Origin: a virus
DNA length: 20,835 bases
Virus record (IMG/VR): IMGVR_UViG_3300037847_002991
Coordinates: 20,863-41,697 of that record
Reading direction: 5' to 3' (one strand)
The position numbers were made by a program, and so were the translations under genes. How positions within the stretch are numbered: position 1 is the first letter of the stretch; every line of letters begins with the position of its first letter. Under the pieces are notes generated by a model. It worked only from the letters and a program-made list of their open reading frames with translations, did no database searches and was not told the origin of the DNA. Positions 2,337 to 20,835 of this stretch are shown here, piece by piece.

Positions 2337-2338
2337 GC

Positions 2339-4303
2339 ATGGACGCATACGGATATAACGCATTAAGTGGATTTTTAGGATCAAGTAACATTAAGTCTAA
2401 TAGACAGAATGAATTAGCTTATTTAGATAGAATACTTAGAATGCAACAGCAACAGCAGTTGTTAGATCAAAAAAATACACAAGAAACACAACAGTTTATA
2501 GATAATGCTTACGCTACAGCATTAGAACTAACAACGGGTGAAAATGCTAGAGAAAAAGATATTTTAGATTTTCAACAATTGTCATCTAATTTACTTGAGC
2601 CTATTAATGAAAAAATTAGATTAGCAGGTAGTTTGCAAAATGCCAAAAGATTAGGTATAGATCAAGATATAAGAGCTTATCAATTTAAGCTACTAAACAA
2701 TGATAAAGTTTTTCAAATAAAGAAAAACACAGCAGCATATGCTAAATATCTAGAAACAAGAACAGGTGATCCTAAACTGTCAGGATTATTTCCATTAAGC
2801 GATTTGCAAAGTATACATGATTGGCATTCTGGTAAAACAGATGAAATAAAATGGAGGGGTATATTGGATAGTCCAATCAATACTGATTTTATTGAAGGAA
2901 TGCCACAAGATCAACAAGTAACTGAAGTAGATTATGTATTAAATAATTTACAAGGTTTAGCTGCAGATTATGCATATTATGCTTCTGGAGGAGATAAACA
3001 ACGTGAAGCTCAAATATATTCAGAAGAGTTAGCAACAAAGGGTGCTAATATTATAGCTTCAGGCTATTTAAAAAGAAGACTAGGTGTGAGTGAATTTGAA
3101 AATATACCCACACAATATGGTCAAGCTGAAATAAAAACGTCATTAGGCGAGGAATTACAAAAAGGACAAGTAGAGTTATTCCCTTCAACTGGATTGTCAT
3201 TTAATGAATTAGATCAGTATGGAGGATTTTCAGGATATGTAAATTCTAATAAAAATGTTGCTGCAGAACTTTCTATTAGATTAGGAGCAGATGATGATTT
3301 ATCTAATTTAGATACAAAACGTAATATTAGAATTGATGCATCACATGAGTTGTTTGCAAATGACAAACAAACATTAAATAGAATCGTAGATGCTTATTTT
3401 GGTAGTGAAGGTTATTACTTTACAAGAGGAGGAGGAATTAAGATTAGAGTTAATGATTCTATGCTTAACAAATCCTATAATTATCAAGGAGCTTCTTTAG
3501 AAGGTGACCTTGATTATGTAGATAGAACAGCTGATGATATGGAGATCAATGGTTTATTCTTAGGATCTAAAGCAACATATACAGATCAAGCAACTGGTGA
3601 ATTACGAACAAGATTATTAGTAATTGATCCAAGACAAAAAGGCGATAAAACATATTTACAAAAAGTTTTAAAAAATGTTAATACAAATGAGCCTGTTTCA
3701 TTTAGACCTGCCTATTTACTACAGCTTAGAGAACCTGATCCATTAAGAGATGATATATACTATCACGAAATAAATATAGGTAGTGATGCATTTATGGCTA
3801 ATATAAGAGATGAAAACTATGACAAAAATCTTTCTTATGCTAAAAATACTAGAGCATCAGTACAAGCAGATGTAAATGATAGAAACAGAAGAGCAGAGAT
3901 TGATAGAAACACTTACTCTGCACTAAATAGAACTTATGCTCTTGAAGATGGTCCAGGATTACAAACTTTATATAGTAATCACGCAAGTTTACTTAAAGGC
4001 ATGATGGCGGTTCAAAATATAGATAAAAGAATGGAGCCATATATCATTGCAGAAGTATATGATTTAGCTCAAGAAATGATGGGAGAGCAAAAACAAGCTA
4101 ATCAACCTGCAAATTTTTCTACTAATGTCAACCTTATATTAAGTAATTTTGGTAATTTGCAAAAAGATTTACCTGAACTATATCAAGCTATAATGACTGG
4201 TAATCCTAAGAATATTTTACAATACTATGAAGCTACAAATCCAGGTATTGTAGAGCAAAAAGAAAAACGTTACAAACTTTGGGGGAAATATTATAGATTC
4301 TAA
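2339..4303 (+). CDS. Probable internal virion (cargo/ejection) protein, 654 residues
   Basis: This is a 654-residue soluble protein without signal peptide, transmembrane helix or recognisable enzyme motif. The first 120 residues are helical with a glutamine run (QQQQQ at 36-40), suggesting a coiled coil. The middle, about residues 250-500, is mixed and rich in Tyr, Gly and Asp, like a beta-containing structural domain. The last 150 residues are helical again. It starts two bases after the preceding stop with AGGAG well placed, and ends one base before the giant polymerase gene. By position it is probably a partner of the giant protein, packaged with it and passing through the tail during DNA ejection. 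That role is inferred from order and composition, and a portal-proximal ring or tail-tube component is an alternative. Confidence 0.65.
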   Translation: MDAYGYNALSGFLGSSNIKSNRQNELAYLDRILRMQQQQQLLDQKNTQETQQFIDNAYATALELTTGENAREKDILDFQQLSSNLLEPINEKIRLAGSLQNAKRLGIDQDIRAYQFKLLNNDKVFQIKKNTAAYAKYLETRTGDPKLSGLFPLSDLQSIHDWHSGKTDEIKWRGILDSPINTDFIEGMPQDQQVTEVDYVLNNLQGLAADYAYYASGGDKQREAQIYSEELATKGANIIASGYLKRRLGVSEFENIPTQYGQAEIKTSLGEELQKGQVELFPSTGLSFNELDQYGGFSGYVNSNKNVAAELSIRLGADDDLSNLDTKRNIRIDASHELFANDKQTLNRIVDAYFGSEGYYFTRGGGIKIRVNDSMLNKSYNYQGASLEGDLDYVDRTADDMEINGLFLGSKATYTDQATGELRTRLLVIDPRQKGDKTYLQKVLKNVNTNEPVSFRPAYLLQLREPDPLRDDIYYHEINIGSDAFMANIRDENYDKNLSYAKNTRASVQADVNDRNRRAEIDRNTYSALNRTYALEDGPGLQTLYSNHASLLKGMMAVQNIDKRMEPYIIAEVYDLAQEMMGEQKQANQPANFSTNVNLILSNFGNLQKDLPELYQAIMTGNPKNILQYYEATNPGIVEQKEKRYKLWGKYYRF

Positions 4304-4304
4304 A

Positions 4305-7300
4305 ATGGCAGATATAAACGATCCACAAGAAGAAATAAAAGAGTATGATGCAGGATTTAGTCAAAATCCTTTTATTGCATCATTGATGAATCAACAAAAT
4401 GAAGATCAAAAAAATCTTGAGCAATATGCAACACAAATGCAAGCTCAAGAAAGTAATCGTCTTCAAAAACAACAACTTAATTTAGAATCAAGTGGTGTGG
4501 GTAGAGATCCAAGATCTTATTTAGGACCTACAGTTGCACCACAAGATATACTTACAGTAGGTGGTGGTGTTATAGGTGGAGCTTTTGGCGGTCCATTAGG
4601 TTTAGCTGCAGGTATAGGTTTAGGTGCTGCAGCTGCTGATGCTGCAGGATCTGACTCAATGTTATCAAGAAGTTTAGCTGCAGGTACAGGGCAATTTATA
4701 CAAGGTGCAGGAGATACTTTTGAATATCTTAAAGCTGTAGTAACACCATGGGATGATGATGTAGATCAACAAACTACTATAGGTGATTTTTTACAGAGAA
4801 AAGGCTCAGATATAATGAATGCTAATACTACATTTATTCCTGAGGAAATGAAATCTGTAGGTTGGAATCAATTAGCTGATCCAAGATTTTGGGCTACTGA
4901 TGTAGCAAAGCTTTTGCCATATTCTATGTCATTCTTTTTACCCGCAGGTGCAGCAGCTACTGCAACAAGAATAATGCTTAATTCAACCAAAGCATATAGA
5001 GCAGCTTCTACGTTTGGAATTGCTGATAGATTATACCAACCAAAAATTGTTAAAGCTGGTAAAAAATTAGCTAAACAAAAAGGTGTGTTAAAAGGCGAAG
5101 AAGTTGTAGTAGAAACATTAAAGAAAACTCCAAGAATTATTGCATCCGCAATAGGTGGTGGTGTTGGTGGTAACTTTGCAGAAGGGGCATTTGTAGCAGG
5201 TGAAACATTACAGCAAGGATTAGCTGATGGTTTAACACCACAAGAAGCACAAGCTGCAGCATCACAAGTATGGAGAGATAATACTAATTGGATTGCAGCA
5301 GATATAGCGCAGTTTGGTTTAGTATTTGGTGGACTAGGTAGACTAACAGCAGGTTTAAGAAATATACCAAAACAAGCTAGCTTTGGCCAAAAAATATTAC
5401 CTTTTGTACAAGCAGGTGCAACAGGTGTTACTGAAGGTGTAGTTGAGCAATATCAAGAAGTATATCAAGAGTGGGTAAAAGGTAGAGCTATTGCAGATCA
5501 AAAAGGTGAGGACTTTGTTACTTTTAGTGAATTTTTTAAAAGTGATGAAATGTTACAAACACGAGTAAGTGCTTTTGCTTTAGGTTTAGCTATGGGTTCT
5601 AGAGGGGGTTATGTAGATGCTATAGCAGAAAGATCATATCAATTACAAGAAGCTGAAACAAGACTTGGAGAATTTATAGATGACAATAAATTTCAATCAG
5701 CACAAAAAAATAGATTAAAGTATATAGCTTATACTGTTATAGATAGTAATGGTAATGCTGCATTAGCTAAGTCAAGAGTTGAAAGAATGGTTGCTGAAGG
5801 ACAAATGCAATCAGATTTAGGTGAAGATACTATAGCCGCAATAGAACAAGCAGAAGATATATATAGAACTACATATAAAGATAATTCTTTAAGTCAAGCA
5901 GGTAGAGAACAAATATTTTTATCTCGTGTGCAAATAGAAGAAGCTAAGCGAACTATAAGTGCAATTAATGAACAAAGACAAGAGCAAATAGATTTTCATA
6001 ATGAAACTATTAAAAATAAACCTGAAGTATTAGCAGAACAAATTGAAATAACAAACAGAGAACATGATATTGCTGTTCAATTGCAAGAAGAACAAATACA
6101 AGCTAATGAAGAGTTAATTACTAATATAGCTTCATTAAGAGCAGGCAAACTTAGAAAGGATGGTAAAGTTAAAAGATCATCCATAGGATTAGCACCGAAA
6201 GAGTTTAGGGACTTTACTACGGAAGGTATAGAACAACCTGCTCCAGTAGTACAGCGTGTAGTAGACACTGTAAAAAAAGGTGCACAAGCAGTTAAAGAAG
6301 GTGTACAAAAAGGAGTGCAAGCTGTTAGAGAAAAAGGTGTAGTAAAAGCTACTGGAGATGCATTAGGTCTTGCACAAGAAAAAGCACAAGAAGTTATTAA
6401 AAGTGAGCCAGCACAAAATCTACGTACATTTTTACAAGAACAATTTGATCAAGGCAAAAACTTTGCTAAAAAGTATTTAAAACAAAATGCACCAAAAACA
6501 TCTGAAGCATTAGAAAAAGAAATAAGTGCAGCAAGAGAAATATTTGGTGAGCGTGTTCTATCAGCAGAAGAAGTAAAAACTAAAGCTAAAGAAATAATAC
6601 AAAAAATAAAAAAAGTTAATTTAGTTGGAGCGTCTGGTAAAGTTTTAGAAGAATTTACAACTTTTGTAGAAAAAAAATTACAAGATAAAACTGTTACAGA
6701 AACTGTGGTAGATATAGCAGATTCTTTAATTGATAAAACAAAAGATACTGCTAAAAAAGTTGTAGAAAAAGGTAAAGAATTAGCAGATAAGAGTAAACAA
6801 AAACTTGATGAAGCTACAGAAAAAGTAGAAGCTAGAACAGAAAAGGTTAGAACAGAAAAGGCTAAAAAAAAAAGTAAAAGACCAACAAAACAAGCAGTAG
6901 AAGAATCTGTAAAACAAGAAACAACTGCAGAAGATAATACAGACAATCAAAGTCTTTATGATCAAAGCAGCGAGTTTAGTAGAGAAACTCCAAAAAGAAA
7001 AGATACTAACGATAAAGAACCTGCTAGATCATATCTTGAAAGAGTAGATATGGAAGAGTTTTTTATTAGAAGATATTTAACTCGTGCTTTTGAAGAAAAA
7101 TTTCCTGGTAAAAATATTACGTTTACAAATAGACAAGTTATAGAAGGATTTGGTGCACCTGCATCTGCCGTATTTTTTGCTAGTACAATTATAGTAAATC
7201 CAAGAAAAGCTATGCAAACGGATTTGATACATGAGCTATCACATCCATACTACCAATCAATAGCAGGAACTCCAATACAAAAACGACTTAATGCTTTATT

Positions 7301-10300
7301 AATTAAAAGAAGAGTCATAACTCCAGGAGGATCTATTACGGGTTTAATAGAAAATATTCAATATAGTTATCCTTTACTTACAAGATATAAGAGGGGCAAA
7401 AAATTTGTAACTGGTGGTGATATATTAAATGATTTAAGAAAACAAGAAAGAGCAACAATAGATGATGCTCTATCTCAACTACTAGATACTATAGAAACAT
7501 CATCAGAAGCAGGTAATACTATTGCATATAAAAATGCAGCACAATCTTTATTTACATATTTATCAGATAAAGGTGATATAAAAAGATTACAAGATAAATC
7601 ACAATATGGATTATTAGAGGAAGCATTTGCATATTCTAACGAAGAGTTTAATAAACGTGGAGGTATTAGAAATGTTATAGATAATAAAACAGATGCTAAT
7701 AACTATGATAGTTTATTAAAGCGTATGTATAAACGTATATTTAATTTAGCTGATAAAGATGCAGGTAAGTCTGCTTTAGACAAAGTTTTGCCTGAAGTTA
7801 GATTAATGAACTTTGATGAAGCTATGACTTATGTTCAAAGAAACTTTAATATATTAAACAAAGACAATAAGTTTAAACAAAACTCTTACAGCAAAAATAC
7901 TATGTTAAAGCAAGCTAGCTTTGATGCTATATCTACTGTTGGATTGTTTAGAATTATAGAACAAAAAGTATTAGCTAAAGGTGCTAGAGGTGAAGATGCT
8001 GTACAAGAAATAGCAAAAGAAATATACAAACAAAATAATAAAACATATAATACAGATAAACAAGTTCCACCATTTGAAGTGACATCTGTAGAACATGACT
8101 ATCTACTTAGAAAGATTAGAGCACAGGTAGAAAGATTATCTTTTACAGAATATCAAAGAGTTGTAGATGGACTTATACAATCTGTAGACGCTAGACTTAA
8201 TCAGGGCGAAAGGTCTGATGACTCATTAGTATTTAGTTTTAATCAAGAAAGTGAGCAGGTAGCAGAAGAAAATGATAAAGGCAACATATACGATCAAGAA
8301 GAAACATTATTTGGTGATACTACATCAAAACTTATACAAGCATACGCAATAGAAGAAAGTAAAAAAAATGATAAGAACCCTGTAGATGTAAAGGATTTAT
8401 TATCTGAGCTACATTCACTAGGACAACAAAGTAAAAAGCGTGATGTATTTACATTTGTAAATTCTGTTACTAATAGTGACAATGCGTCTGTGGCTAGATT
8501 TGTAGCGTTTCTTAAATCTAAACTTAAAAAAGATGCATTTGTAGATGCTTTATTATTAGAAATGTCTATTGACTTTGCTAATAAAAAGATTGAAACAATG
8601 AAAGAGGTAGGGTTTATGAGAGGTGATAATAAACAAACCACTTGGGTGCCTGGAATATCATTTAGTAAAGATGAAGCTAGATGGCAATCTACACTAACTA
8701 AACAAGCTAATAAATACTTTAGACCTACAATACAAGAAGATAAAAATACAGTAAGGGCTATGATATCTGCTATTGAATCTGGTAATGGTATAGCAGAAGC
8801 ACTTACATCTTTATATGGTGATTCACCTTATTGGGCATTTATCGATAAAAGAAAGCTTACAGAAACAGGTAATCTATATACATTTGATAACAAAAGATAT
8901 TCTTCATTAAAACAACTATTCCAATCAAGACAAAATGATTTTGTGCAAGGTGGTGTGTTACAAATAAAAGGTGGCTTTAATAAACTATTAGGCGATTTAA
9001 TAGTTCAATCAAGAGCTAAGAATTATATAACACAAGTTAATGATGTAGCAGAAAACCCTACCTTAACTATTAACAAAGAAAACTCATTGCATAATAAAAA
9101 TGAAAACTATGCAACTTTAGCAGAGCAAAATATAGATGCATATATTTCATTAATGAAAGGTTTAGGATTTATTAATAAAGATGTAGGTAGGTATAGCAAT
9201 ATATATGCATTAATGTTGGCTGATAGAACAGGTAAAGAACATAATATAAGTATGTTATCTGGTGTATTTAGCACACCTGAAAATGCAAAACAAGATGCGC
9301 GTAGAAACAGAAAATACGTTAAGATGGATAGTCAAGAGCTTATGCTCACAGACTTTAATGATTTTGTTTATGCATTATCTAGATTTAATAAAGGTGAAAC
9401 GGTATACTATGATCAACCTATAGCAGTATTTGGTGCAGCTAAAAGAAGATACTATGTTAGTACACCTATTGCACAAACTTTTAAACAAAGGCAAAGGTTG
9501 TTGCAAATGGCCTTAGACGCTGGATATAACGATGTAAAATATAAAAAATCTGGAAAAAGAGTAAATCCATTTAAGATAGTTAAAAAGAAAGATGGTTTAG
9601 CTTTAGTGGGATTAAAACAATATGCTAAAAAGTTTAAGAAAGAATTACTAAAAGATCCAGATCAAATTAAACTCAATACACTTATAGGAGAAAAAGGGCA
9701 AAAATTAAAACAAGGAGATATAGATAACTATCTTTTAAACTATTCTATTAACAAATTTTTTGCGCAAGAGTTTTTTATAGGCAAACATGAAGAAAGTGAT
9801 AGTGAAATAGATTATATAAAAAGAGCAGAAGGAGCCATAAAAAGACACACACCACACGATCGTAATACGCCTATAGAGTTTGTAGCATTTCAAGATGTAA
9901 CAGACTTTGACGGATTTAAAGCAACAGATGCACAAGCATATGTATTGCCTGGTGACGGTGAAATAATTCGTAAAAAGTTTGGATCTATGCGTAAAGTTGG
10001 TAATCAATTCAAACATGTTTATGATTATGTTGAAACTAACAATAGTAAGCTTATAGGTAAAAGAACTTTTGCTAAGTTTAAGATAGATGAGATAACTCCT
10101 GAAATGGAACAAAATAGTCCGTATCTTAAAAAGATAGCTAATATATTAAGAGCCAGAAAAGAACGTATAGGTGAGTCTAGACTTATACCTGGACCAGAAG
10201 TAACAGGACAGTTACACGATTTTATACCAATTGCAACTTTTGAATCTGCTTTAAAATTATATGCAGGTGGTGAACAATATACATATGATTTAGAAAATAC

Positions 10301-13300
10301 TACAGAAGATGAGGTTGTAGAAAGACAAGATGATATATATGTAGATGGAACTTGGGCAGGTGTAAATGGTGAAGGATTTGGTTTACAAGTAGAACTTGAT
10401 AAAGAAAGACATTCATTCCATATGCCATCACAGTTATTTGGACACCATCACACTAATTTAGAAGCTGAAGAAGAAGCTATGGTATCTCGTATGCATGAAT
10501 TAGCAGCTAGAGCTATGGTAGGCTTTGAGCAAAAAAGAAGTGGTAATGTTATATATAGTGATAAGTCTACAACTGAACAAAGACAAAAAGATACAGAGTT
10601 TTTAAGCAAATTAATAGGTGAAGAGTTTTTTGGTAATCTGAATACATCATTATCAAAATATGCTCCAGGACTACATCCACAGTTGCATAAAATGTTACAA
10701 CAGTTAGCATCTTCAAGACTTGTTAAGTTTGGAACAAAGGCTATGTTTGGTGGTACAATAGCTTATCAAACATCTCCAATAGGTAGAGATTTAAAGTCAT
10801 ATATTAAAGTATCTGACTTGGTTGATGAAGTGTCAGGACAACAGTATAAAAATAATCTTAATGCATTAATAGAACAAGGTAAAGACTTTGTAGTATCAGA
10901 AGCTATAATACCTGCATCTGCAAAAAAAGATGGTATTAAGGTAGGTGATTTAGTATTAGGAACGCGTATACCTGCACACGGTAAACAATCATCTGTAGTG
11001 TTTGTTGTGAAAGGTTTTGCAGCTGAAGGTGTAGATGGTGCAAGATCTACAATAGCCATACCATCAAGAGTATCACATGTTATGGGTGCTGATTTGGATG
11101 GTGATGCTATATATTTAAACTACGCACATATTGGTAATGTACCAGGCACAACAAAGATTAGTCCACTAGGACAAGAGGCTAGAGTGCAGACTAATTTATT
11201 AGAAGACTATCAAGTTGCAGCTAATGAGTTGTTAGACTTAAACATAAAACTATTAGGAGATATAGAGGTAGATAGTCGTAGGTATAAAGAAATTACAACT
11301 CCTATTGATATAAAAGAGGTAGCAGAAGATGCCATCAAATCAGTTGAAAGTTTCTATGGTAAAAAATTAGAAATGGATAATCAGCTTTTACCAACAGGTG
11401 ATGCACAGTTTTTTAATGACAATGTACCTGCACAGAATATGATTGGTACAATAGCATCATTACAACGCGTATTAAATGTAATGGCTGGACACAAAGTAGG
11501 ATTTAAGTTTGGTATAAATATTAAAGGCTATGAAGAAATAGATTCATTAATAGATAGATTTGATGAAGGTAAGCCAGAAGGTGACGCATTTACCGTAGCA
11601 CAATTACTTAATATAGTATTAGATAACGCTAAGTATCAATATGCTAATAAGCTAGGATTAACTCCTAATACAGTAAATATATATACATTTTTAGCTAGAA
11701 ATGGTATAAGCATAAAAGATGTTGCAACCATAATGAATCATCCTATTGTTAAGCTATACGATAAGCATAGAGGTGATCAATCTATTATGACTACTACAGA
11801 TACTAATCAAGCAATAAAGAATGCTTACAAAGAATATTTTAATTTAGTAGGCGAAGCAGGTGCATTAAGTGCAGTTAAAAAATTTAGTAGAGCTGGTGAT
11901 GTTAATTTAGATATATCAAAGCTCAAAGGTAAGAACAGACAAACAGAAGAAGCTTTGTTTGATTTATTGTATAAAACAGAAAAATTAACTGATGAAATAT
12001 TTAGTATCGGCAAAGCATTATCTGTACACAAAGCAATACCTCAGCATGGACATGATGCACAACAGTTGATAAATACTATTACAGAAGACAATTCTAATAG
12101 CTTTATTAATCCTAATACAATAGATAACTTTAGATCAGATCCATTAGTTAAACACGCTATTGATTTATTACAAAAACAAGTAGATAGGCAAAAGTCTACA
12201 TCATTTATGTATACACCAGAAGCTAGACAGATTATAGAGTACATACAAGATACTAAAAAAATTACTCTTGATTTTACAAGATACGAACATAGAAAGCTTA
12301 TAGACGATTATTATTTAATGAAAGTAGCGCAAGCTGTGCCTGCAGTAAACTACAATAATAGAACATTAAAAGAAGTTTATAATGTGCTAGAAACGTATAG
12401 TCAACAACCTGGATCTAATTTTGTCAAAAAGTATTTATTGTTTAGTAATGTAGAAGGGCAAAGTGAATACTTCCAAAACAATATACAAATTAGTCCTAAT
12501 GAAATTAATAAGTTTTCTGTAGAAGAAACTATACAGCAAGCGCGTAACGAGTTTACTCTATTACCACAAGAAATTAAAGATGCTCTACTACAGTATGATT
12601 ATATAAAAAATGGTTTAGGTTTTAAAGGTAAATCATTGACGCCATTGTTTGCTAAAGATTATGTAAGAAATACATTTGGTTTATTAGATCAGTTATTAGA
12701 AACAGAACTTAATAAACAAATAAACATTGAAGCTAGAGAAATAGTAGATATGTCTAATGAGCTTATACGTAAACATTCTAATATATTTAAAAAACAAAAA
12801 AATGCAGATTTAGCACAAAAGCTTACTAATAAAATAAATGCACAAAAAACTGTAGAACCTGCGAGTTCAGCTAAACTTAAATTAGATAAGAGAGAGTTTT
12901 ACCAAGATCACTTACAAGAGCTAACACAAACATTAACCTTTGAAGAGTATTTAAGATTTACAGGGTTTGATCCATTAAAGCTAGACAATGCTGATAAGCC
13001 TACACTTAATTATTTAAGATCAAAGTATGCTCGTTATCAAGACTCTGTAGCTAATGTAGAACAAAAAGAAAATCAATTAGGTAATTTAGAAAGATACTCT
13101 ATTGAAAAATTAACTAAAGAAGCTAGAGAACTACAAGATAAAGAAGATGAATTAGCATCACCTAGATTGTTATATAAGTTACATTTGACTATTGGTAAGA
13201 AGGCTATGAAAAAACAAGCCGATAAACTTAGACAAACCAAACCAGAATTTAGAGAAACAGATGAAGATATTACGGTAATACGTAAATGGTTTGGTGCAAA

Positions 13301-15320
13301 TGATATGACATCTAAAAGACCTGAGATACAGTTAATGCTCAATGAAATGGAAAAAGAGTACAGAAAGTATGTAAGGGAAGTTAAAAAAATAGTTAATGAA
13401 ATTGATGTTGTTGATAGAGCTTTAATAAAAAGTAAATCATTAAAGGGTGTATTTAACAGAAGAAATAGACAGCTTGAGATATATGGTAATATGTTTAACA
13501 TTAATCAAGATGAAAGAGGTAGACAGTCAGGTATTAGTTTAAAAACACAATCAGAATTTAATGCAACTAATCCGTCACAACAAGAGCGCGACTTTTATAA
13601 TAAGTATTTAGAGATTACTGGTAAGTATCGCGACTTACTTGGTAAAGATGGTATGGGTGAGTTTTATATACCGCATGTACAAATGGGTAATATAGAAGCC
13701 TTATCTGCTAGAGGTTTGCTTGGATTATATGCAAACTATTTAGGATCTACAACTAACATAGATGGTGTTATGGTTAAAGGCACAGGTGCTGATGGTAAAG
13801 CCACAAATATGACATTTGGTGAGTTTAAAGAATTGTATCTTACTGAAGGTGGTGAGCTAACTATGAAGTCAGGCAGAAGAATATATGAGCTAAGAAAGCT
13901 TAAGAAACAAGCGGAGCAAAGATTAAAAGAAGGTGTAGGTTCAGATGGCAAAACTATTACTGCTAGTGACTTAGAAATGGATACTCTTATGGGCAATGGT
14001 TTATTCTCTAGATTTAATGCTGGTAGAACTACAAGAGCTAAAGAGCTTACAAGTTTTAATTTAGCAGAAAACTTAAGACAATACGTTAGATCTATTACAT
14101 TTATAAAAGGCACACCTAAGGTAAATGGCGAACAAGCTTTTGAGGGTATGGAAAATATGTCTACTCTTGTTGATGGTGTTATAGCTGTTAATAGAAACAT
14201 GGGTAATGTAAATTCAGCAGAGTATTTAACTAAAGTATGGCGACAAAAGTTTTTGCGTAATCAATCACAAGTTAGTCCGTTTGGTCCTACATTTGATAAA
14301 GCTACAAGATTTATGGTTAGGTGGACAGCCCTTATACATTTAGGATTTAGTGCTGCTGTGGGTGTAGGTAATATACTTGCAGGTAAATATCAAGAGCTTA
14401 GAGCTAAAGGTGGTAAAAACTTTATAAAAGGTGAAAAACGTTTTTGGACAAGTTTAAAAGGTCGAAACGATTGGGCTGCTATGGATATACTTAAAAGACA
14501 TAGAGTTGTAGAAATGTCATTTAGTGATGTAGTAGGACAAAAAGATGAGTTTAGTAAAATAGAATCATTAGCATTTTTACCTATGGAACTATCTGAAAGA
14601 TGGATACAGGGTGCAGCATTTCTTGGAGAATTATCTCAAGAAGAATATCAAAAAGCTTTGAATGACAAAGACTATATGATAGATGAAGAAACTGTAATGA
14701 AAATAAATGCAACTATATCTACTATGCATGGTGAAGGCTATACACAGCTAGATCAAAGACTACTTAGTATGTATTCATTAGGTTTAGCTGCACAACAATT
14801 TAAACGTTGGTTTATTACATTGGTTTACAATAGATTTAAACCTGAAGATATAGATAGGTTTGGTAGAGAGTCAATAGGTTCTTACAGAGCAGGATATGAA
14901 TTTGTAAACAGAATGTTTACTGGTGAAGTTAAACTGTCTGAGTTACAGGAAGAGTTTAGAGCATTGCCTGAGTTTAAACAAAAAGCTATAATATCTTTAC
15001 TTAATGGATTAGGTATGACTGCAATGTTATTGTTAGTTGGCGCTATGTCTGATGATGAAGATTTGTATAGTAAAAACATACAGAAACTAAGTAATGATGC
15101 TATGATATTTACAGATACTAATCGTTTTGTAAACTATACATTACCACCAGCTTCTATAAGCACAGGGCGTAATGCTATGCAATTTATGAGAGAATTGTCT
15201 ACCTTTGAAAGATTTAAAAGGGATAGCAAATTTGGTGATGCAGGTGATTTAAAAGCAAGAGGTACGCTTAGAAAGATATTACCATTTCAAGATGTAACAG
15301 AAAAATTATTAGAAAAATAA
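4305..15320 (+). CDS. Giant virion protein: zincin plus DxDGD-type RNA polymerase
   Basis: This 3,671-residue protein has no internal stop and is the largest gene in the window. In order it shows: Gly/Ala-rich hydrophobic stretches (about 82-116, 203-226, 278-300, 331-352); a lysine-rich repeated-helix region (about 650-880); an HExxH zincin (H976, E977, H980, possible third ligand E1105 or E1106); a double-barrel RNA polymerase core (about 1856-2506) with TDAQ at 1874-1877, lysines 1919, 1924 and 1926, R2221-I-P2223 and catalytic DLDGD at 2263-2267; a long helical region; a conserved-looking LGFSAAVGVGNILAGK near 3345-3361; and a membrane-like helix at about 3562-3582. The DLDGD aspartates bind catalytic magnesium in this polymerase family. 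The likely role is a polymerase carried in the virion, ejected with the DNA and transcribing early genes. Virion location is inferred from neighbouring structural genes. The fold assignment is fairly secure; the protease activity is less so. Confidence 0.85.
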   Translation: MADINDPQEEIKEYDAGFSQNPFIASLMNQQNEDQKNLEQYATQMQAQESNRLQKQQLNLESSGVGRDPRSYLGPTVAPQDILTVGGGVIGGAFGGPLGLAAGIGLGAAAADAAGSDSMLSRSLAAGTGQFIQGAGDTFEYLKAVVTPWDDDVDQQTTIGDFLQRKGSDIMNANTTFIPEEMKSVGWNQLADPRFWATDVAKLLPYSMSFFLPAGAAATATRIMLNSTKAYRAASTFGIADRLYQPKIVKAGKKLAKQKGVLKGEEVVVETLKKTPRIIASAIGGGVGGNFAEGAFVAGETLQQGLADGLTPQEAQAAASQVWRDNTNWIAADIAQFGLVFGGLGRLTAGLRNIPKQASFGQKILPFVQAGATGVTEGVVEQYQEVYQEWVKGRAIADQKGEDFVTFSEFFKSDEMLQTRVSAFALGLAMGSRGGYVDAIAERSYQLQEAETRLGEFIDDNKFQSAQKNRLKYIAYTVIDSNGNAALAKSRVERMVAEGQMQSDLGEDTIAAIEQAEDIYRTTYKDNSLSQAGREQIFLSRVQIEEAKRTISAINEQRQEQIDFHNETIKNKPEVLAEQIEITNREHDIAVQLQEEQIQANEELITNIASLRAGKLRKDGKVKRSSIGLAPKEFRDFTTEGIEQPAPVVQRVVDTVKKGAQAVKEGVQKGVQAVREKGVVKATGDALGLAQEKAQEVIKSEPAQNLRTFLQEQFDQGKNFAKKYLKQNAPKTSEALEKEISAAREIFGERVLSAEEVKTKAKEIIQKIKKVNLVGASGKVLEEFTTFVEKKLQDKTVTETVVDIADSLIDKTKDTAKKVVEKGKELADKSKQKLDEATEKVEARTEKVRTEKAKKKSKRPTKQAVEESVKQETTAEDNTDNQSLYDQSSEFSRETPKRKDTNDKEPARSYLERVDMEEFFIRRYLTRAFEEKFPGKNITFTNRQVIEGFGAPASAVFFASTIIVNPRKAMQTDLIHELSHPYYQSIAGTPIQKRLNALLIKRRVITPGGSITGLIENIQYSYPLLTRYKRGKKFVTGGDILNDLRKQERATIDDALSQLLDTIETSSEAGNTIAYKNAAQSLFTYLSDKGDIKRLQDKSQYGLLEEAFAYSNEEFNKRGGIRNVIDNKTDANNYDSLLKRMYKRIFNLADKDAGKSALDKVLPEVRLMNFDEAMTYVQRNFNILNKDNKFKQNSYSKNTMLKQASFDAISTVGLFRIIEQKVLAKGARGEDAVQEIAKEIYKQNNKTYNTDKQVPPFEVTSVEHDYLLRKIRAQVERLSFTEYQRVVDGLIQSVDARLNQGERSDDSLVFSFNQESEQVAEENDKGNIYDQEETLFGDTTSKLIQAYAIEESKKNDKNPVDVKDLLSELHSLGQQSKKRDVFTFVNSVTNSDNASVARFVAFLKSKLKKDAFVDALLLEMSIDFANKKIETMKEVGFMRGDNKQTTWVPGISFSKDEARWQSTLTKQANKYFRPTIQEDKNTVRAMISAIESGNGIAEALTSLYGDSPYWAFIDKRKLTETGNLYTFDNKRYSSLKQLFQSRQNDFVQGGVLQIKGGFNKLLGDLIVQSRAKNYITQVNDVAENPTLTINKENSLHNKNENYATLAEQNIDAYISLMKGLGFINKDVGRYSNIYALMLADRTGKEHNISMLSGVFSTPENAKQDARRNRKYVKMDSQELMLTDFNDFVYALSRFNKGETVYYDQPIAVFGAAKRRYYVSTPIAQTFKQRQRLLQMALDAGYNDVKYKKSGKRVNPFKIVKKKDGLALVGLKQYAKKFKKELLKDPDQIKLNTLIGEKGQKLKQGDIDNYLLNYSINKFFAQEFFIGKHEESDSEIDYIKRAEGAIKRHTPHDRNTPIEFVAFQDVTDFDGFKATDAQAYVLPGDGEIIRKKFGSMRKVGNQFKHVYDYVETNNSKLIGKRTFAKFKIDEITPEMEQNSPYLKKIANILRARKERIGESRLIPGPEVTGQLHDFIPIATFESALKLYAGGEQYTYDLENTTEDEVVERQDDIYVDGTWAGVNGEGFGLQVELDKERHSFHMPSQLFGHHHTNLEAEEEAMVSRMHELAARAMVGFEQKRSGNVIYSDKSTTEQRQKDTEFLSKLIGEEFFGNLNTSLSKYAPGLHPQLHKMLQQLASSRLVKFGTKAMFGGTIAYQTSPIGRDLKSYIKVSDLVDEVSGQQYKNNLNALIEQGKDFVVSEAIIPASAKKDGIKVGDLVLGTRIPAHGKQSSVVFVVKGFAAEGVDGARSTIAIPSRVSHVMGADLDGDAIYLNYAHIGNVPGTTKISPLGQEARVQTNLLEDYQVAANELLDLNIKLLGDIEVDSRRYKEITTPIDIKEVAEDAIKSVESFYGKKLEMDNQLLPTGDAQFFNDNVPAQNMIGTIASLQRVLNVMAGHKVGFKFGINIKGYEEIDSLIDRFDEGKPEGDAFTVAQLLNIVLDNAKYQYANKLGLTPNTVNIYTFLARNGISIKDVATIMNHPIVKLYDKHRGDQSIMTTTDTNQAIKNAYKEYFNLVGEAGALSAVKKFSRAGDVNLDISKLKGKNRQTEEALFDLLYKTEKLTDEIFSIGKALSVHKAIPQHGHDAQQLINTITEDNSNSFINPNTIDNFRSDPLVKHAIDLLQKQVDRQKSTSFMYTPEARQIIEYIQDTKKITLDFTRYEHRKLIDDYYLMKVAQAVPAVNYNNRTLKEVYNVLETYSQQPGSNFVKKYLLFSNVEGQSEYFQNNIQISPNEINKFSVEETIQQARNEFTLLPQEIKDALLQYDYIKNGLGFKGKSLTPLFAKDYVRNTFGLLDQLLETELNKQINIEAREIVDMSNELIRKHSNIFKKQKNADLAQKLTNKINAQKTVEPASSAKLKLDKREFYQDHLQELTQTLTFEEYLRFTGFDPLKLDNADKPTLNYLRSKYARYQDSVANVEQKENQLGNLERYSIEKLTKEARELQDKEDELASPRLLYKLHLTIGKKAMKKQADKLRQTKPEFRETDEDITVIRKWFGANDMTSKRPEIQLMLNEMEKEYRKYVREVKKIVNEIDVVDRALIKSKSLKGVFNRRNRQLEIYGNMFNINQDERGRQSGISLKTQSEFNATNPSQQERDFYNKYLEITGKYRDLLGKDGMGEFYIPHVQMGNIEALSARGLLGLYANYLGSTTNIDGVMVKGTGADGKATNMTFGEFKELYLTEGGELTMKSGRRIYELRKLKKQAEQRLKEGVGSDGKTITASDLEMDTLMGNGLFSRFNAGRTTRAKELTSFNLAENLRQYVRSITFIKGTPKVNGEQAFEGMENMSTLVDGVIAVNRNMGNVNSAEYLTKVWRQKFLRNQSQVSPFGPTFDKATRFMVRWTALIHLGFSAAVGVGNILAGKYQELRAKGGKNFIKGEKRFWTSLKGRNDWAAMDILKRHRVVEMSFSDVVGQKDEFSKIESLAFLPMELSERWIQGAAFLGELSQEEYQKALNDKDYMIDEETVMKINATISTMHGEGYTQLDQRLLSMYSLGLAAQQFKRWFITLVYNRFKPEDIDRFGRESIGSYRAGYEFVNRMFTGEVKLSELQEEFRALPEFKQKAIISLLNGLGMTAMLLLVGAMSDDEDLYSKNIQKLSNDAMIFTDTNRFVNYTLPPASISTGRNAMQFMRELSTFERFKRDSKFGDAGDLKARGTLRKILPFQDVTEKLLEK
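4548..4653 (+). other. Gly/Ala-rich hydrophobic segment of the giant protein
   Basis: Residues about 82-116 of the giant protein consist almost entirely of Gly, Ala, Leu, Val and Ile, with GGxxGG-type spacing and no charged residue before the terminal aspartates. Together with similar segments near residues 203-226, 278-300 and 331-352 this looks membrane-inserting. In podovirus internal proteins such segments fit a role in forming a channel for DNA entry; here that is inference. Confidence 0.45.
6246..6950 (+). other. LEA/histone-H1-like lysine-rich helical region (protein domain)
   Basis: Residues about 650-880 of the giant protein form repeated amphipathic helices rich in Lys, Glu, Ala and Val. 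Short motifs such as VKKGAQAVKEG, KDTAKKVVEKGKELADK and KQKLDEATEKVE recur at roughly 11-residue periodicity. This composition resembles late-embryogenesis-abundant group 3 proteins, apolipoproteins and histone-H1-like tails. The end, near KAKKKSKRPTK, is strongly basic. The region lies between the hydrophobic N-terminal part and the zincin and may be a flexible, unfoldable linker or a nucleic-acid- or membrane-binding segment. Confidence 0.55.
6864..6873 (+). repeat. A10 homopolymer tract within the giant gene
   Basis: Ten consecutive A residues encode three lysines and part of the next serine codon (residues 854-857). Adding one A leads at once to AAG-TAA, and losing one A reaches a TAG eight codons after the shortened run. 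Any slippage therefore yields a product of about 855-865 residues containing only the hydrophobic and LEA-like regions, without protease and polymerase. Whether slippage occurs cannot be seen from sequence. Confidence 0.5.
7050..7640 (+). other. Zincin (HExxH) domain of the giant protein
   Basis: HELSH (residues 976-980, bases 7230-7244) is preceded by the edge-strand-like segment ASTIIVNPRKAMQTDLI and followed about 125 residues later by LLEEAFAY. A glutamate there (E1105 or E1106) could be the third zinc ligand of a gluzincin. The order of hydrophobic strand, HExxH helix and downstream E-bearing helix matches zinc metallopeptidases embedded in large phage proteins. Processing of the giant protein or of its virion partners is a reasonable but unproven role. 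Confidence 0.6.
9870..11820 (+). other. Double-psi beta-barrel RNA polymerase core of the giant protein
   Basis: The region contains, in the expected order, a TDAQ segment (residues 1874-1877) and lysines at 1919, 1924 and 1926. The TDAQ segment resembles the TDG-type segment of the first barrel of RNA-interference-type polymerases. Next come RIP at 2221-2223 and DLDGD at 2263-2267 (bases 11091-11105), 42 residues from the arginine to the first aspartate. In E. coli beta-prime the R425 to D460 spacing is 35. A downstream helical part with DNAK at 2440-2443 fits the bridge-helix side of the active centre. This is not a T7/N4-type polymerase. Confidence 0.8.
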
Positions 15321-17138: not shown

Positions 17139-18305
17139 ATGCATTTAGGATTACACTACGGTCTTGAGAATACTTCTCACTATAAATGTTTTCAGCCTAG
17201 TGATATTAGCGATTTAGCTTTACATTTTGATTTATCAGATATAGCTTCGTATTGGGTTAAAGATGCAAGACAATATATATTATTGGTGCCTGTAGCTGGA
17301 GACCTTAATGCAGGTTCCACAGATACATTAGTATTAAGAACATTTTCAAGTTCTATGCCTAGTATATCTACACAAACTAGCGCACATTATTCTAATTTAT
17401 TTAATAAACCAGGAGTTTTTAAAATTGGAAAAGAATTAATTAGTTATGATAATTTAACTTCATCTAGTGATGCTACCATGGTTTTTACTGGAATACAAAG
17501 AACTCAGTTTGACACTCCAGAAGGCAATCACTCTACTAATGATGTAATTGATTTTTTAATATCAGGAGCTATTGTAGATCCAAGATGTTTTGATAGAGTT
17601 AATAACAGTATTTTTTTAAGCACTGAAAGTTCTTCTAATACAGGAACACAAAGAGTTCCTGTACAGTCAGGTGGTTATTATTTATCATCTAATTCAAATG
17701 ACACTACTAATTTTTTAGGCATTCATAATGCAAATAAAGCTTTATTTTTTGATGGAGCTGATGATGTGTTAAGATTAAATAATGAATTTACCAGTACATC
17801 ATTAGACAGCACTTATGTATTTGTAGTTAGAATACCACAAAATTCTAATGCAAACTCTACAGTAAGCTTAGATATATTAATTGGCGGTCTAGTTGCGGGT
17901 AGAGCTATGATGAGACTTTCTCAAAATAATTTAAGAGTAAGATTTAATCATGATAATTCAGCTACAAATGCCGAACAAATATTAGAAACTAATAATACTA
18001 ATAATGGGACAACTAATGTACAGTTTCCTTTTGATTCATTACAAGTCATTATGTTATTAAAAGCTGGTAATGTGTTACAATTATTATATAACAATGTATT
18101 AGTAGCAGCTGAAACATATACAGCTGTTGATTCTAATATAACTGGTGCATTAATACAAACTTTAGGAAGAAGAACTGATTCAGGTGGATCATCTGATTCG
18201 TTTATGGAATTTGGTGAGTTTTTATATTATGATAAAATATTAACTACACCAGAGTATACAGAATTATATAATCATTTAAGAGACAAATGGACAGGAGGTT
18301 TATAA
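17139..18305 (+). CDS. LamG-like virion adhesin interrupted by an IGxExIxY module
   Basis: This 388-residue protein starts one base after the preceding stop. Residues about 20-45 (PSDISDLALHFDLSDIASYW) are the opening of a LamG/concanavalin-like domain. The domain resumes at about 150 with DRVNN, then ALFFDGADDVLRL near residue 201, and closes with GEFLYYDKILTTPEYTELYN near the C-terminus. Between the two parts sits a module with IGKELISY (96-103), GIQRTQFDT (R121) and H131. This matches the IGxExIxY...GxxRxxxxTxxxxH pattern found in several phage tail proteins. No signal peptide is present. Host-surface binding is the likely role. The last 19 bases overlap the following gene. Confidence 0.7.
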   Translation: MHLGLHYGLENTSHYKCFQPSDISDLALHFDLSDIASYWVKDARQYILLVPVAGDLNAGSTDTLVLRTFSSSMPSISTQTSAHYSNLFNKPGVFKIGKELISYDNLTSSSDATMVFTGIQRTQFDTPEGNHSTNDVIDFLISGAIVDPRCFDRVNNSIFLSTESSSNTGTQRVPVQSGGYYLSSNSNDTTNFLGIHNANKALFFDGADDVLRLNNEFTSTSLDSTYVFVVRIPQNSNANSTVSLDILIGGLVAGRAMMRLSQNNLRVRFNHDNSATNAEQILETNNTNNGTTNVQFPFDSLQVIMLLKAGNVLQLLYNNVLVAAETYTAVDSNITGALIQTLGRRTDSGGSSDSFMEFGEFLYYDKILTTPEYTELYNHLRDKWTGGL

Positions 18306-19330
18306 TAATAATAATATTAATTAGTTTGATTTCATGTGCAACACCAAAAAAATGTTGTTCACAAATATTTAAATTTTCTACATTTTATGTAGCAGCTAAT
18401 GGTGGCACATCATTATCTGATAGAGATATTTATTCTGTAGATGGAAGTAAATTAAATTATGATACTATTGTAACACCATATGACTATTCTTTGTCTATGG
18501 GTATAAGAAAAATACAACGATTTGGATATGAAGATAGAACCACTTTTAAAGATGGTACTGAATCATCATTTAGTGATGCTGCTAGCGTAGGCAGAAATCC
18601 TTTTGAATATTTATTTCAATTAAAATATAAAAGACAAGAAGGTGTAGAGTATTTAGATCAACATCATTTTATAAGATATGTTAAATCTAAATGGTTATCA
18701 AAAGTAGAATATATTGTAGATGGTTTTGCAGACATAGAATATTTTGAAAGTACGCAAAGATTAAGACTTAATGGTAATAAAAAATTATCTTTTAATATTG
18801 GTGCAGTACAAAGATTAGCTGAACCATATGGTTTTGATCCTTTAGAACAATGGATACTATCAACAGGTGATATACATTATACGCAACTTGCAATTAATGA
18901 AGGTTATGAAATAGATGTATATGAATCTGAATATAAAAATCCAAATGGAGATATTGTTGCGACAAGCTCTGATGTTTGGAATCAAGTAGTAATTCCAGAA
19001 GTATTAGAAAACTATGTATCTAAAAAAAGACAAGAGTTAGCTAATCAATGGCAACACTCATTAGTTATTGGATTTGATTTTTATCATTACAAGAAAAACT
19101 TTTGGTTACATTCTTGGGGTAATTTTATGCCTTATCATTATGATGATGGTGGACAATATTCATATCATAACTTTAATGATGGAGAACAATGGTATGACTA
19201 TTCTGGTGGCTTAATATTTGGTTTGAAAATTAACAAACATTTAGGTACCTTTGTAGAAGGTAAATATAATAAGTACTGGAATAGAGAGTGGTACGATTTT
19301 AAATTTGGAATAAATTATATAATATTTTAA
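18287..19330 (+). CDS. Lipoprotein/outer-membrane beta-barrel-like protein
   Basis: This 347-residue protein has an N-terminal signal MDRRF plus an Ile-rich core, ending in the lipobox LISC with C17 as the possible lipidated residue. The mature part has alternating aromatic and polar strands, for example GGLIFGLKINKHLGTFVEG. The last strand is DFKFGINYIIF with a terminal Phe, the classic outer-membrane protein end signal. It is probably exported and either lipid-anchored, inserted in the outer membrane, or both. I recall similar proteins in flavobacterial phages but no named function. Masking or altering receptors late in infection is one possibility. The ATG at 18287 gives a normal charged n-region. 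AGGAGG just downstream and an ATA at 18305 overlapping the upstream stop raise an alternative start. Confidence 0.7.
   Translation: MDRRFIIIIILISLISCATPKKCCSQIFKFSTFYVAANGGTSLSDRDIYSVDGSKLNYDTIVTPYDYSLSMGIRKIQRFGYEDRTTFKDGTESSFSDAASVGRNPFEYLFQLKYKRQEGVEYLDQHHFIRYVKSKWLSKVEYIVDGFADIEYFESTQRLRLNGNKKLSFNIGAVQRLAEPYGFDPLEQWILSTGDIHYTQLAINEGYEIDVYESEYKNPNGDIVATSSDVWNQVVIPEVLENYVSKKRQELANQWQHSLVIGFDFYHYKKNFWLHSWGNFMPYHYDDGGQYSYHNFNDGEQWYDYSGGLIFGLKINKHLGTFVEGKYNKYWNREWYDFKFGINYIIF
18293..18298 (+). promoter_or_regulatory. AGGAGG located after the chosen start codon
   Basis: A perfect Shine-Dalgarno hexamer lies six bases after the first base of the chosen ATG (18287) and six bases before the ATA codon at 18305. 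It is also constrained by the Gly codons at the end of the upstream protein, so it may be coincidental. If functional it would favour initiation at ATA 18305 and remove the MDRRF n-region. Confidence 0.35.
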
Positions 19331-19331
19331 C

Positions 19332-19610
19332 ATGGCAACTGAAATAAGTAAAGAGACAAAACTAAAGTTAAGTTTAGAAACAATAATAGGTATTGGTTTT
19401 GTCTTAGTAACAATGACTGGTATGTGGTTTACATTAAAAGCTGAAATACAAGAAGCAAAAGAATTGCCTGAACCACCACCAGCAGAAGTTACACGAATGG
19501 AATTTGATATGAAAGATCAGCTTGTTCGTCAAACAATAATGACTACACAAGAAGATGTAAAAGAAATCAAAGAAACATTAGAAAAAATAGAAAGAAAAAT
19601 TTATCAATAA
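19332..19610 (+). CDS. Single-pass membrane coiled-coil protein (holin- or spanin-like)
   Basis: This 92-residue protein has a short polar N-terminus, one transmembrane helix at about residues 18-35, and a proline-rich hinge (LPEPPP, 45-50). A charged helical tail follows, ending in the heptad-like EDVKEIKETLEKIERKI. Length, single anchor and coiled-coil tail fit either a one-helix holin or an inner-membrane spanin subunit. The position between an exported beta-barrel-like protein and a secreted thioredoxin-fold protein supports an envelope or lysis role. There is no endolysin gene next to it in this window. The start lies one base after the preceding stop. The stop overlaps the next start in TAATG. 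Confidence 0.6.
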   Translation: MATEISKETKLKLSLETIIGIGFVLVTMTGMWFTLKAEIQEAKELPEPPPAEVTRMEFDMKDQLVRQTIMTTQEDVKEIKETLEKIERKIYQ

Positions 19611-19966
19611 TGAAAAGATTTGCAATCGTATGGAGAATGTTATTGACATATTTGTTTGTATTATCTTTATTGTTTGTCTCTACTGTTGCTTTTTCACAGA
19701 TTACAGCGATACACTTTAATGCAGGTTTTAATTCTGCTAATGATGTGGAATGGTTTAGTAAATTAAAAGATTGTAAGAAAAAAAATTTATTAATTGAAGA
19801 AGACAATAATCAAATTGAATACAGCATAGCTGTTGTTCCTACAATAATTATATTAGATGATGGAGAAGAAGTTAAAAGATTTCAAGCAGATCTTAGTTTT
19901 AAAATGGTTGCAACTAAAGAAGAAATTCAAGAATATATTGAAGAACTTATAATTAGTAAATTTTGA
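19610..19966 (+). CDS. Exported thioredoxin-fold protein lacking CxxC
   Basis: This 118-residue protein has a signal peptide of about 29 residues (basic MKRF start, hydrophobic core, AFS before Q30). The mature part follows the thioredoxin order: beta strand TAIHFNAGF where the WCxxC loop would follow, an amphipathic helix, and a strand leading to VVPTIIILDDGEEVKRF. There P77 is in the position of the conserved cis-proline, and a closing helix follows. The active-site cysteines are absent (NAGFNSAND in their place). The only cysteine is C55. A redox reaction is therefore unlikely; a periplasmic binding or chaperone role is more plausible. It overlaps the neighbouring genes by one base on each side. 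Confidence 0.65.
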   Translation: MKRFAIVWRMLLTYLFVLSLLFVSTVAFSQITAIHFNAGFNSANDVEWFSKLKDCKKKNLLIEEDNNQIEYSIAVVPTIIILDDGEEVKRFQADLSFKMVATKEEIQEYIEELIISKF

Positions 19967-20835
19967 TGAAATATTTATTAAGTTTATTGTTATGTGTAAA
20001 TATAGTATTTGCACAATGTCCACCTGGTACTTGGGGATTAGATATTACTTTAAGTCCTGATCAATATCCTGAAGAAACATCTTTTGTTATATTAAATTTA
20101 GAAGGAGATACAATATTAAATGGAGGACCTTATACAAATATAATAGATTATCAACCTCAATATGCTAGTATTTGTTTACCTATAGATACATTTATATTTA
20201 TATTAAATGATGAATATGGAGATGGTGTAGCAGGTAGCTTATGGGGAGGAGAAGATGGTAATGTTATAATAGAACAGTGTGGTGATACAATATGGGAATT
20301 AGAAAGTCCTGATTTTGGTTTTGGTTTAATGGACACTATAATAACTTCTAATTGCCCACCACCACCTGCTATATATGGCTGTATGGATGAAAACTTTTTA
20401 GAGTTTTTATTAACAGCAACAGTTGATACTGGTATGTGTATTACACCTAAATTATTTGGATGTACAGATTCATTAGCATTTAATTATGACGCAATGGCTA
20501 ATACAGATGAATTTATAGATAGTTGTAATCATACATTAGAATTAACCGACTTAGCTGGAAACGGCTGGGCTGGTTCTTCTTTAATAGTTTCACAAGCTAC
20601 AAATTTATTACCACCATATGGTTGGGTAGAACTTGGTACATATACTTTAGAAAATGGTTTTGATACTGTATTTAATTTAAATTTATCTGCAGGTTATAAA
20701 GTTAAGGCAGTTTTTGAAATAACACAACAATCTGATTTTACTGCAGTACAATGTGGTTATAGTTTGTATTCAGAAGAGTACATAGCTATTGATATAGAAG
20801 GTGGATTTGTAAATCCTATACCTCCATTTGTTTCT
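19966..20835 (+). CDS. Secreted cysteine-repeat protein, Bacteroidetes style (3' partial)
   Basis: The frame opens at the ATG overlapping the previous stop (TGATG) and runs 290 codons to the window edge without a stop. A signal peptide (MKYLLSLLLCVNIVFA, cleavage after A16) precedes beta-rich repeats. Two D-x-x-G-[DN]-G loops occur (from D82 and from D195). Two cysteine-bounded repeats of the GC-x-D type lie at residues 138-158 and 165-187, the second reading GCTDSLAFNYDAMANTDEF. Such repeats are common in large surface or secreted proteins of Flavobacteriia, often type IX secretion substrates. No sorting domain can be judged because the C-terminus is missing. In a phage this suggests host-derived or host-mimicking surface material, or a virion-linked adhesin exported late. 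Confidence 0.75.
   Translation, partial: MKYLLSLLLCVNIVFAQCPPGTWGLDITLSPDQYPEETSFVILNLEGDTILNGGPYTNIIDYQPQYASICLPIDTFIFILNDEYGDGVAGSLWGGEDGNVIIEQCGDTIWELESPDFGFGLMDTIITSNCPPPPAIYGCMDENFLEFLLTATVDTGMCITPKLFGCTDSLAFNYDAMANTDEFIDSCNHTLELTDLAGNGWAGSSLIVSQATNLLPPYGWVELGTYTLENGFDTVFNLNLSAGYKVKAVFEITQQSDFTAVQCGYSLYSEEYIAIDIEGGFVNPIPPFVS
20377..20526 (+). repeat. Two GC-x-D cysteine-bounded protein repeats
   Basis: Repeat one spans residues 138-158 (bases 20377-20439) and repeat two residues 165-187 (bases 20458-20526) of the secreted protein. Each begins with GC-x-D and ends with Cys after an acidic stretch. They correspond to the GCTDxxAxNYxxxAxxDDGSC repeats of flavobacterial exported proteins; repeat one is degenerate. 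Confidence 0.65.

Follow-up and report, generated by a model that had tools for sequence, protein, structure and literature searches.

A crassvirus gene cut by its contig end probably encodes a cysteine-rich cargo of the host type IX secretion system and belongs to a conserved four-gene cassette

The open reading frame (ORF) at the right end of the window (the whole stretch of 20,835 nucleotides analyzed here, positions 20863 to 41697, which make up the right-hand half of a 41,697-bp virus record) appears to be the 5′ part, 290 codons long, of a phage gene for a cargo protein of the host type IX secretion system (T9SS), here called T9C. Export of T9C by the host T9SS is very probable: it is strongly supported for the relatives of the protein, and for the truncated window copy the export route is taken from these relatives because its own tail is missing. 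The gene belongs to a conserved phage cassette that also encodes a predicted outer-membrane barrel (OMP), a small protein with one hydrophobic helix (TM92), and an exported thioredoxin fold (TRX). The full chain of events that we propose, from expression of T9C to a shield on the surface of the infected cell, is a tentative reading to which we give somewhat less than even weight. The relevant features of the window are as follows.

18287..19330, + strand: OMP, predicted outer-membrane beta-barrel with signal peptide (predicted model; homologue in 57 of 62 loci)
19332..19610, + strand: TM92, 92 amino acids, one N-terminal hydrophobic helix and, by eye, a coiled-coil-like tail (homologue in 52 of 62 loci)
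19610..19966, + strand: TRX, exported thioredoxin fold with NxxN in place of CxxC (profile matches; homologue in 57 of 62 loci)
19966..20835, + strand: T9C, secreted Cys-rich repeat protein (290 amino acids seen; C terminus and export tail missing beyond the contig end)
19966..20013, + strand: putative signal peptide of T9C, residues 1 to 16 (read from the sequence; the mature protein would start QCP)
20014..20355, + strand: first domain of T9C, with PDQYPEETSF and DEYGDG motifs (distant kin of domains in bacterial proteins with T9SS-type tails)
20377..20526, + strand: two GC-x-D units of T9C (GCMD..., GCTD...; from the sequence)
20527..20835, + strand: second domain of T9C (LTDLAGNGWAG ... 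VQCGY ... GGFVNPIPPF; from sequence comparison)

The T9C frame runs for 290 codons without a stop up to the window end. There the end of the record itself cuts the gene, so that its right end is absent from the data and its right-hand neighbors in its own record are unseen. The ATG at 19966 overlaps the TGA (19964 to 19966) of the upstream TRX gene. The N terminus (MKYLLSLLLCVNIVFA, followed by QC) is hydrophobic and reads as a signal peptide. In the 51 complete relatives the N terminus is likewise hydrophobic and ends in AQC or similar, with Q17 and C18 invariant in all 51. The visible 290 residues contain 10 cysteines and two GC-x-D units (GCMD at 138 and GCTD at 165). A preliminary description of this DNA had called the product a flavobacterial-style secreted repeat protein with a signal peptide, D-x-x-G-D-G loops, and GC-x-D repeats. 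Its flavobacterial-style secreted repeat character is borne out by the signal peptide as read, by the two visible GC-x-D units and the further ones in complete relatives; the loops hold for one exact motif (DEYGDG, residues 82 to 87) and not in the plural, the second being only a variant (DLAGNG, residues 195 to 200). Searches of Pfam, PHROGs, and PDB sequences with window T9C returned no match, nor did tblastn against 50,697 phage records with T9C (E limit, 0.1) or with one T9C tail (E limit, 0.01). A PDB profile match of the Cys-rich part to an F-box/LRR protein (6o60_C; E = 0.00023) was treated as a chance effect of composition.

Relatives of T9C were found by a pattern scan of IMG/VR, which returned 65 stretches. 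Sixty-two of these encode T9C relatives, several of them near-identical copies of one another, with 52 to 72% identity to the window copy; as judged from these identities, T9C is a family well beyond chance. Fifty-one relatives are complete (601 to 794 amino acids), and 11 are cut by the sequence end. The complete proteins share one layout: a signal-like N terminus and two N-terminal domains are followed by consecutive GC-x-D repeats (6 to 14 beyond the N-terminal part, as counted in 44 proteins divided into parts), then by a small region rich in Cys, and finally by the C-terminal tail. Cysteines number about 5.6 per 100 residues in the relatives. In some loci a signal-less GC-x-D protein of about 1.3 to 1.5 thousand residues is encoded upstream of the cassette (L012:273-4739 and its counterparts in L013, L023, and L048 to L052, of about 1.45 thousand residues); it is possibly a virion protein with secreted-type repeats. 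Because this phage protein also carries them, GC-x-D repeats alone do not imply export.

The evidence for export lies in the tails. A YPNP/FPNP-type tail ends 46 of the 51 complete relatives and a short LGRP...Y-x-DG tail the remaining 5, with none lacking both. The NCBIfam model of the T9SS type A sorting domain (TIGR04183) matches 41 of the 51 at an E value of ≤0.01. Among the relatives' records, 33 of 40 match at an E value of ≤0.001 and 29 of 40 score over the curated cutoff; 2 of 14 control genomes were matched, one of these a Deinobacterium, which is not a member of the Bacteroidota. The 10 complete relatives that miss the E value of ≤0.01 are the five short-tailed proteins (no match) together with L005, L023, L038, L043, and L056. 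When ten complete relatives were scanned singly, seven scored over the NCBIfam cutoff and five over the stricter Pfam cutoff (Por_Secre_tail, PF18962), and no enzyme domain was recognized in any of the ten; Pfam matches to T4_Y03C and LysM_RLK inside the T9C repeats were below the cutoff. The two relatives closest to the window copy, both at 72% identity, differ in this respect: L006 passes the NCBIfam cutoff, and L005 fails it (15 bits versus 23). A type IX sorting domain, which the preliminary description had suggested might lie at the right end, is therefore a feature of the complete relatives (TIGR04183 and PNP counts above), the window copy having lost its own tail.

Structure prediction agrees with the profile searches. 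In the AlphaFold model of the L006 protein (mean pLDDT, 64.9; pTM, 0.30), the tail is predicted at a pLDDT of about 80 to 87 and the body at low confidence. Foldseek placed a T9SS cargo domain, 8glk_D, first (E = 2.6 × 10−4; TMt, 0.80; rmsd, 2.0), and further tail matches were 8glj_D (TMt, 0.80), 8gl6_D (0.70), and 7pq4 (0.55). These matches pair the tail with the cargo domains of NucA, FspA, and RemA, as solved in T9SS structures, and with the C-terminal domain (CTD) of RgpB; the RgpB, RemA, and FspA domains stood at ranks 4, 5, and 15, and other early matches were of low similarity and to the body. By comparison of folds, the predicted tail is of the Ig-like CTD type. A PDB profile search also retrieved 8glj_D and 8glk_D. 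For the T9C body, PDB profile, PDB sequence, and Foldseek searches found no convincing solved structure.

The gene is carried by a phage, as the preliminary description had stated. The record encodes crassvirus major capsid, ring 1, ring 2, and muzzle proteins, each over the Pfam cutoff of 27 (PF23898, 136.5 bits; PF24228, 59.9; PF25702, 37.3; PF25731, 427), and PHROG matches add a terminase, a portal, and head proteins. Among 50,697 phage records, 212 are matched by this terminase, every one at <60% identity; the best matches are gut crAss-like phages, and the rest include Flavobacterium, Bacteroides, and Cellulophaga phages. By these matches the record is a crassvirus (Crassvirales). In the relative L012, the cassette is preceded by the terminase gene and T9C is flanked on both sides by crassvirus genes, the order 3′ of T9C being DUF5675, a weakly holin-like gene, a virion structural family, and a muzzle protein. 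An integrase model matched 0 of the 40 relatives' records, many of which are fragments, and 14 of 14 control genomes. The locus is not a prophage edge, because the contig is a crassvirus and L012 has crassvirus genes on both sides; with the integrase counts, flanking host DNA, the finding that would have spoken against a phage gene, was looked for and rejected. Codon use of T9C was compared, as the preliminary description had advised, with phage genes of the window, and it agrees with that of three phage ORFs that contain no cysteine (r = 0.97 over 49 codons), which disfavors a recent acquisition from the host.

Other genes of these phages may be mentioned here. Four successive ORFs of the window (1-732, cut at its start; 732-2336; 2339-4303; and 4305-15320) together encode about 5,100 residues with zero cysteine. 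The last of them, of 3,671 amino acids, carries GADLDGDAIYLN at residue 2263, a DxDGD motif, and is presumably the virion-borne RNA polymerase of crassviruses. Passages of PMC10172136 describe crassviruses as ejecting cargo proteins through the tail in a partly unfolded state. The cysteine-free ORFs of window 1-15320 may be such ejected cargo proteins, and their ejection could depend on having lost cysteine. On the minus strand of two related contigs (L005:19599-21155 and L145:12790-13062), a gene that looks ribonucleotide reductase-like by eye starts an opposite block beside the late genes.

T9C has recurrent partners in these phages, and the usual order over the 62 loci is OMP-TM92-TRX-T9C. 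The predicted OMP model (mean pLDDT, 71.3) has the NanC porin as its top Foldseek match (E = 8.7 × 10−6; TMt, 0.56; TMq, 0.37), and nearly all other matches listed are membrane barrels; a sequence search of the PDB with OMP found no match. TRX has a profile match to the PDB thioredoxin 2vim (E = 1.9 × 10−7), and the Pfam Thioredoxin model matches 12 of 37 TRX members, the window copy not among them. TRX lacks the CxxC redox motif of active thioredoxin; at its place, as read from the motif, N41 and N44 are invariant in 37 of 37 aligned proteins, and the PT of the cis-Pro motif is kept. In TRX, a redox fold seems to have been reused with the loss of its chemistry. By tblastn, OMP (E limit, 0.001), TRX (0.01), and TM92 (0.01) had no match in the 50,697 phage records.

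Gene order varies within limits. OMP lies behind T9C in L020, L021, L026, L027, L037, L053, and L054. Of 57 loci, 34 have TRX immediately before T9C, 16 have one intervening gene, and 7 have two; the adjacent pairs overlap by one base in 26 of 34 by our own gene calls. A search from the OMP side, taking the best 80 of 476 stretches, of which two were already in the first set, gave 78 new loci. T9C is present in 69 of these 78 by a strict test; a looser count of 71 was set aside, some of its labels being the signal-less GC-x-D protein. Many contigs are common to both sets, and the two counts are therefore not independent. In seven loci without T9C (L068, L089, L091, L097, L112, L138, and L139), the sequence ends at most 0.8 kb past the last cassette gene, and the contig of L089 is also that of L065, which holds the start of T9C; T9C is absent from the available stretch of L074 and L102. 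Some OMP-side T9C proteins are longer (up to 1,080 amino acids) and have different starts. OMP, TM92, TRX, and T9C form a conserved cassette in a group of uncultured crAss-like phages of Bacteroidota. T9C is a recurrent part of this cassette, and the stray host gene that the preliminary description had implied is not supported. Nor is the "lysis region" in which it was placed: the window yielded no identifiable lysis gene, and Pfam and PHROGs returned no lytic family for the four cassette proteins.

Of 50 records tested, 37 allowed the terminase to be compared with that of the window phage; five terminases are 83 to 89% identical to it and the remainder 23 to 33%. T9C identity did not follow terminase identity (Spearman coefficient, −0.13; P = 0.45; n = 37, rows not independent). 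L005, for example, has a terminase 25% and a T9C 72% identical to those of the window, and L007 a terminase 26% and a TM92 99% identical. The cassette is common to phages whose terminases are only 23 to 33% identical, and these comparisons indicate that it travels and recombines.

Exchange is also seen inside T9C. Bodies and tails were separated by pattern in 44 of the 51 complete proteins (L017, L028, L031, L033, L047, L054, and L055 were dropped). N-terminal parts are 80 to 99% identical in 268 pairs, and in 223 of these the tails are <45% identical, as in L023 and L024 (96% and 38%). Conversely, 23 pairs combine N-terminal parts of <62% with tails of at least 70% identity, as in L005 and L038 (60% and 88%). 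Several rows are near-copies, so the pairs are not independent, and five of the 44 proteins are short-tailed. Body and tail trees conflict across branches with 100/100 support, and approximately unbiased (AU) tests on 35 rows, with the short-tailed class left out and the groups chosen after viewing the trees, reject the clade of the other part (P = 2 × 10−56 and 2 × 10−111). By these measures, export tails have been swapped between T9C bodies.

Two tail types depart from the usual form. The short tail (TDLLGRP...Y-x-DG...KKFIK) makes up the C-terminal ~40 residues of T9C in L020, L021, L026, L027, and L042. That of the L020 type gave one strong and one weak match among 198 genomes, the strong one (L161) at the very end of a bacterial protein with a signal-like N terminus, which we take to be a glycan hydrolase. 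The short tail is possibly an undescribed short export signal, its link to the T9SS resting on this one strong bacterial match. A divergent YPNP tail (VDVLVIDN.G...GINY.KV....FTTIIIVQ) is found on otherwise different bodies in L005, L007, L023, L038, L043, and L056 and falls below the TIGR04183 cutoff in all six, L007 matching at E = 0.0073.

Among the phages of Bacteroidota, crassviruses are an abundant group, and little is known of the ways in which they change the host surface. An N-terminal profile of T9C, run as the host homologue search that the preliminary description had proposed, found matches in 16 of 296 genomes of the phylum. One of these is a metagenome-assembled genome (MAG) with a phage contig; the other 15 matches are distant (best E = 6.8 × 10−15) and mostly cover residues 20 to 115 or the repeats. 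Of the bacterial loci read at the match, 12 of 14 lie in proteins with a YPNP/FPNP-type tail at the end (the exceptions are L151 and L156), and the building blocks of T9C are therefore those of bacterial T9SS cargo. A pattern scan of the genome contigs matched 16 stretches, one of them a T9C relative. It lies on a 63-kb contig (L145, JAAXIF010000025.1) binned into a Sphingobacteriales MAG, and the contig is read as phage because it carries OMP, TM92, TRX, T9C, DUF5675, and a fiber-like gene. When that MAG was searched for a terminase, there were three matches, of which two are pieces on the same contig, C28. The binning is possibly a hint of the host or possibly a misbinning.

We propose that T9C is translated with the crassvirus structural genes, its start overlapping the TRX stop, and late in infection if its position is a guide. 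The signal peptide would take the protein across the inner membrane into the periplasm, where many disulfides would form, to judge by the cysteine content of the relatives, perhaps with the help of the redox-dead TRX fold. The C-terminal domain would then be recognized by the host T9SS translocon and T9C placed on the outer surface. Since the complete relatives have a T9SS-type tail, the virus probably has the infected cell display T9C on its surface. There, with binding-type domains and no recognized enzyme domain, it might shield the surface or act as a decoy. T9C and the phage OMP barrel may jointly mask or occupy receptors, which in flavobacteria are often gliding or T9SS-dependent surface structures, so that progeny would not be wasted on the infected cell or its debris and superinfection would be reduced. 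Receptor shielding is our leading hypothesis for the function of T9C, and it fits the place of the gene among structural genes, the body without a recognized enzyme domain, and the accompanying barrel. A fast-adapting decoy is disfavored by the strong conservation of the N-terminal region, which also suits a shield less well unless its ligand is assumed to be fixed. We also entertain, as a doubtful extension, a mobile crassvirus cassette that remodels the envelope and gives the infected cell a new coat against kin of the same phage. The OMP barrel and membrane-anchored coiled coil of TM92 would then act with a redox-dead thioredoxin that escorts the disulfide-rich T9C, whose exchangeable address tail would be tuned to the translocon of the host.

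Other functions would use the same parts differently. T9C might be an adhesin or aggregation factor that sticks infected cells or lysis debris to neighbors, polysaccharide, or particles, the benefit being that the phage reaches new hosts or that the host is helped during infection. The kinship of the first domain with domains of bacterial proteins with T9SS-type tails and the absence of an enzyme domain in the ten complete relatives are consistent with this; however, the body has neither a ligand nor a convincing solved structure to its credit, and a place among structural genes favors egress or progeny protection over host benefit, and we consider an adhesin unlikely. Abundant T9C might instead saturate the T9SS, leaving host adhesins and gliding proteins that serve as phage receptors undisplayed, in which case the body would matter little. 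The tail is indeed the part that fits the translocon by structure match, and passages of PMC9233685 report phage resistance in Flavobacterium columnare with gld/spr mutations, that is, upon loss of the T9SS. A mere plug would nevertheless have no need of a strongly conserved body with many invariant residues, and the tails are swapped rather than kept; jamming of this kind seems to us quite improbable.

We are equally skeptical that OMP, TM92, TRX, and T9C jointly weaken the outer membrane or surface layer late in infection. All four look envelope-directed and stay together, and in L012 DUF5675 and the weakly holin-like gene are near; however, the window proteins have no lytic family, and exporting a large disulfide-rich surface protein would be an odd way of breaking a membrane. 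Least probable, and in our estimate only faintly so, is that T9C or the cassette is part of the particle (a fiber or head decoration) with incidental export signals. The location among structural genes and the signal-less GC-x-D protein of some relatives would suit such a role, but the signal-like N terminus and export-type tail of the 51 complete relatives would remove T9C from the cytoplasm, where virions assemble.

If a recurrent phage cassette uses the host T9SS, that system would be an exploited exit in addition to being, in flavobacteria, linked to entry. For Cellulophaga baltica, passages of PMC13288928 describe phage adsorption by way of gliding proteins. With the swapped tails, nature has in effect run an experiment on T9SS translocon recognition, and the pairing of tail and phage allows a direct test of which host T9SS accepts which tail.

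Like T9SS type A cargo (TIGR04183/PF18962), T9C relatives combine a signal peptide with a C-terminal YPNP beta-sandwich. They differ from it in being phage-encoded among structural genes, in exchanging tails between bodies, and, in 5 of the 51 complete proteins, in carrying the short ~40-residue tail instead. In function, the nearest parallel is Llp of phage T5, a small lipoprotein that provides superinfection exclusion at the outer membrane without a T9SS. T9C would act similarly, as a phage protein at the host surface that hides a receptor, and no sequence relation is claimed. Searches of a literature collection that lacks most subscription papers and bioRxiv preprints returned no report of the T9C family or the cassette. 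Phage-encoded T9SS cargo is already in print. Passages of Bellas et al. (2020; PMC7468147) describe proteins with T9SS type A sorting domains in Cryophage, which vary between phage variants, and name superinfection as a possible role. In that 76-kb phage from cryoconite, the cargo comprises an endoglucanase, a GH39 protein, and a PA14 protein, whereas T9C is a single conserved Cys-rich family, belongs to crassviruses, and comes with a partner cassette. For crAss-related phages, passages of PMC6949934 report sorting-domain proteins upstream of the head section and a T9SS sorting domain in a crAss-BACON ORF, in one case a tandem-repeat protein. BACON domains make up that ORF, in contrast to the GC-x-D repeats, PEETSW/YGDG domain, and four-gene cassette of T9C.
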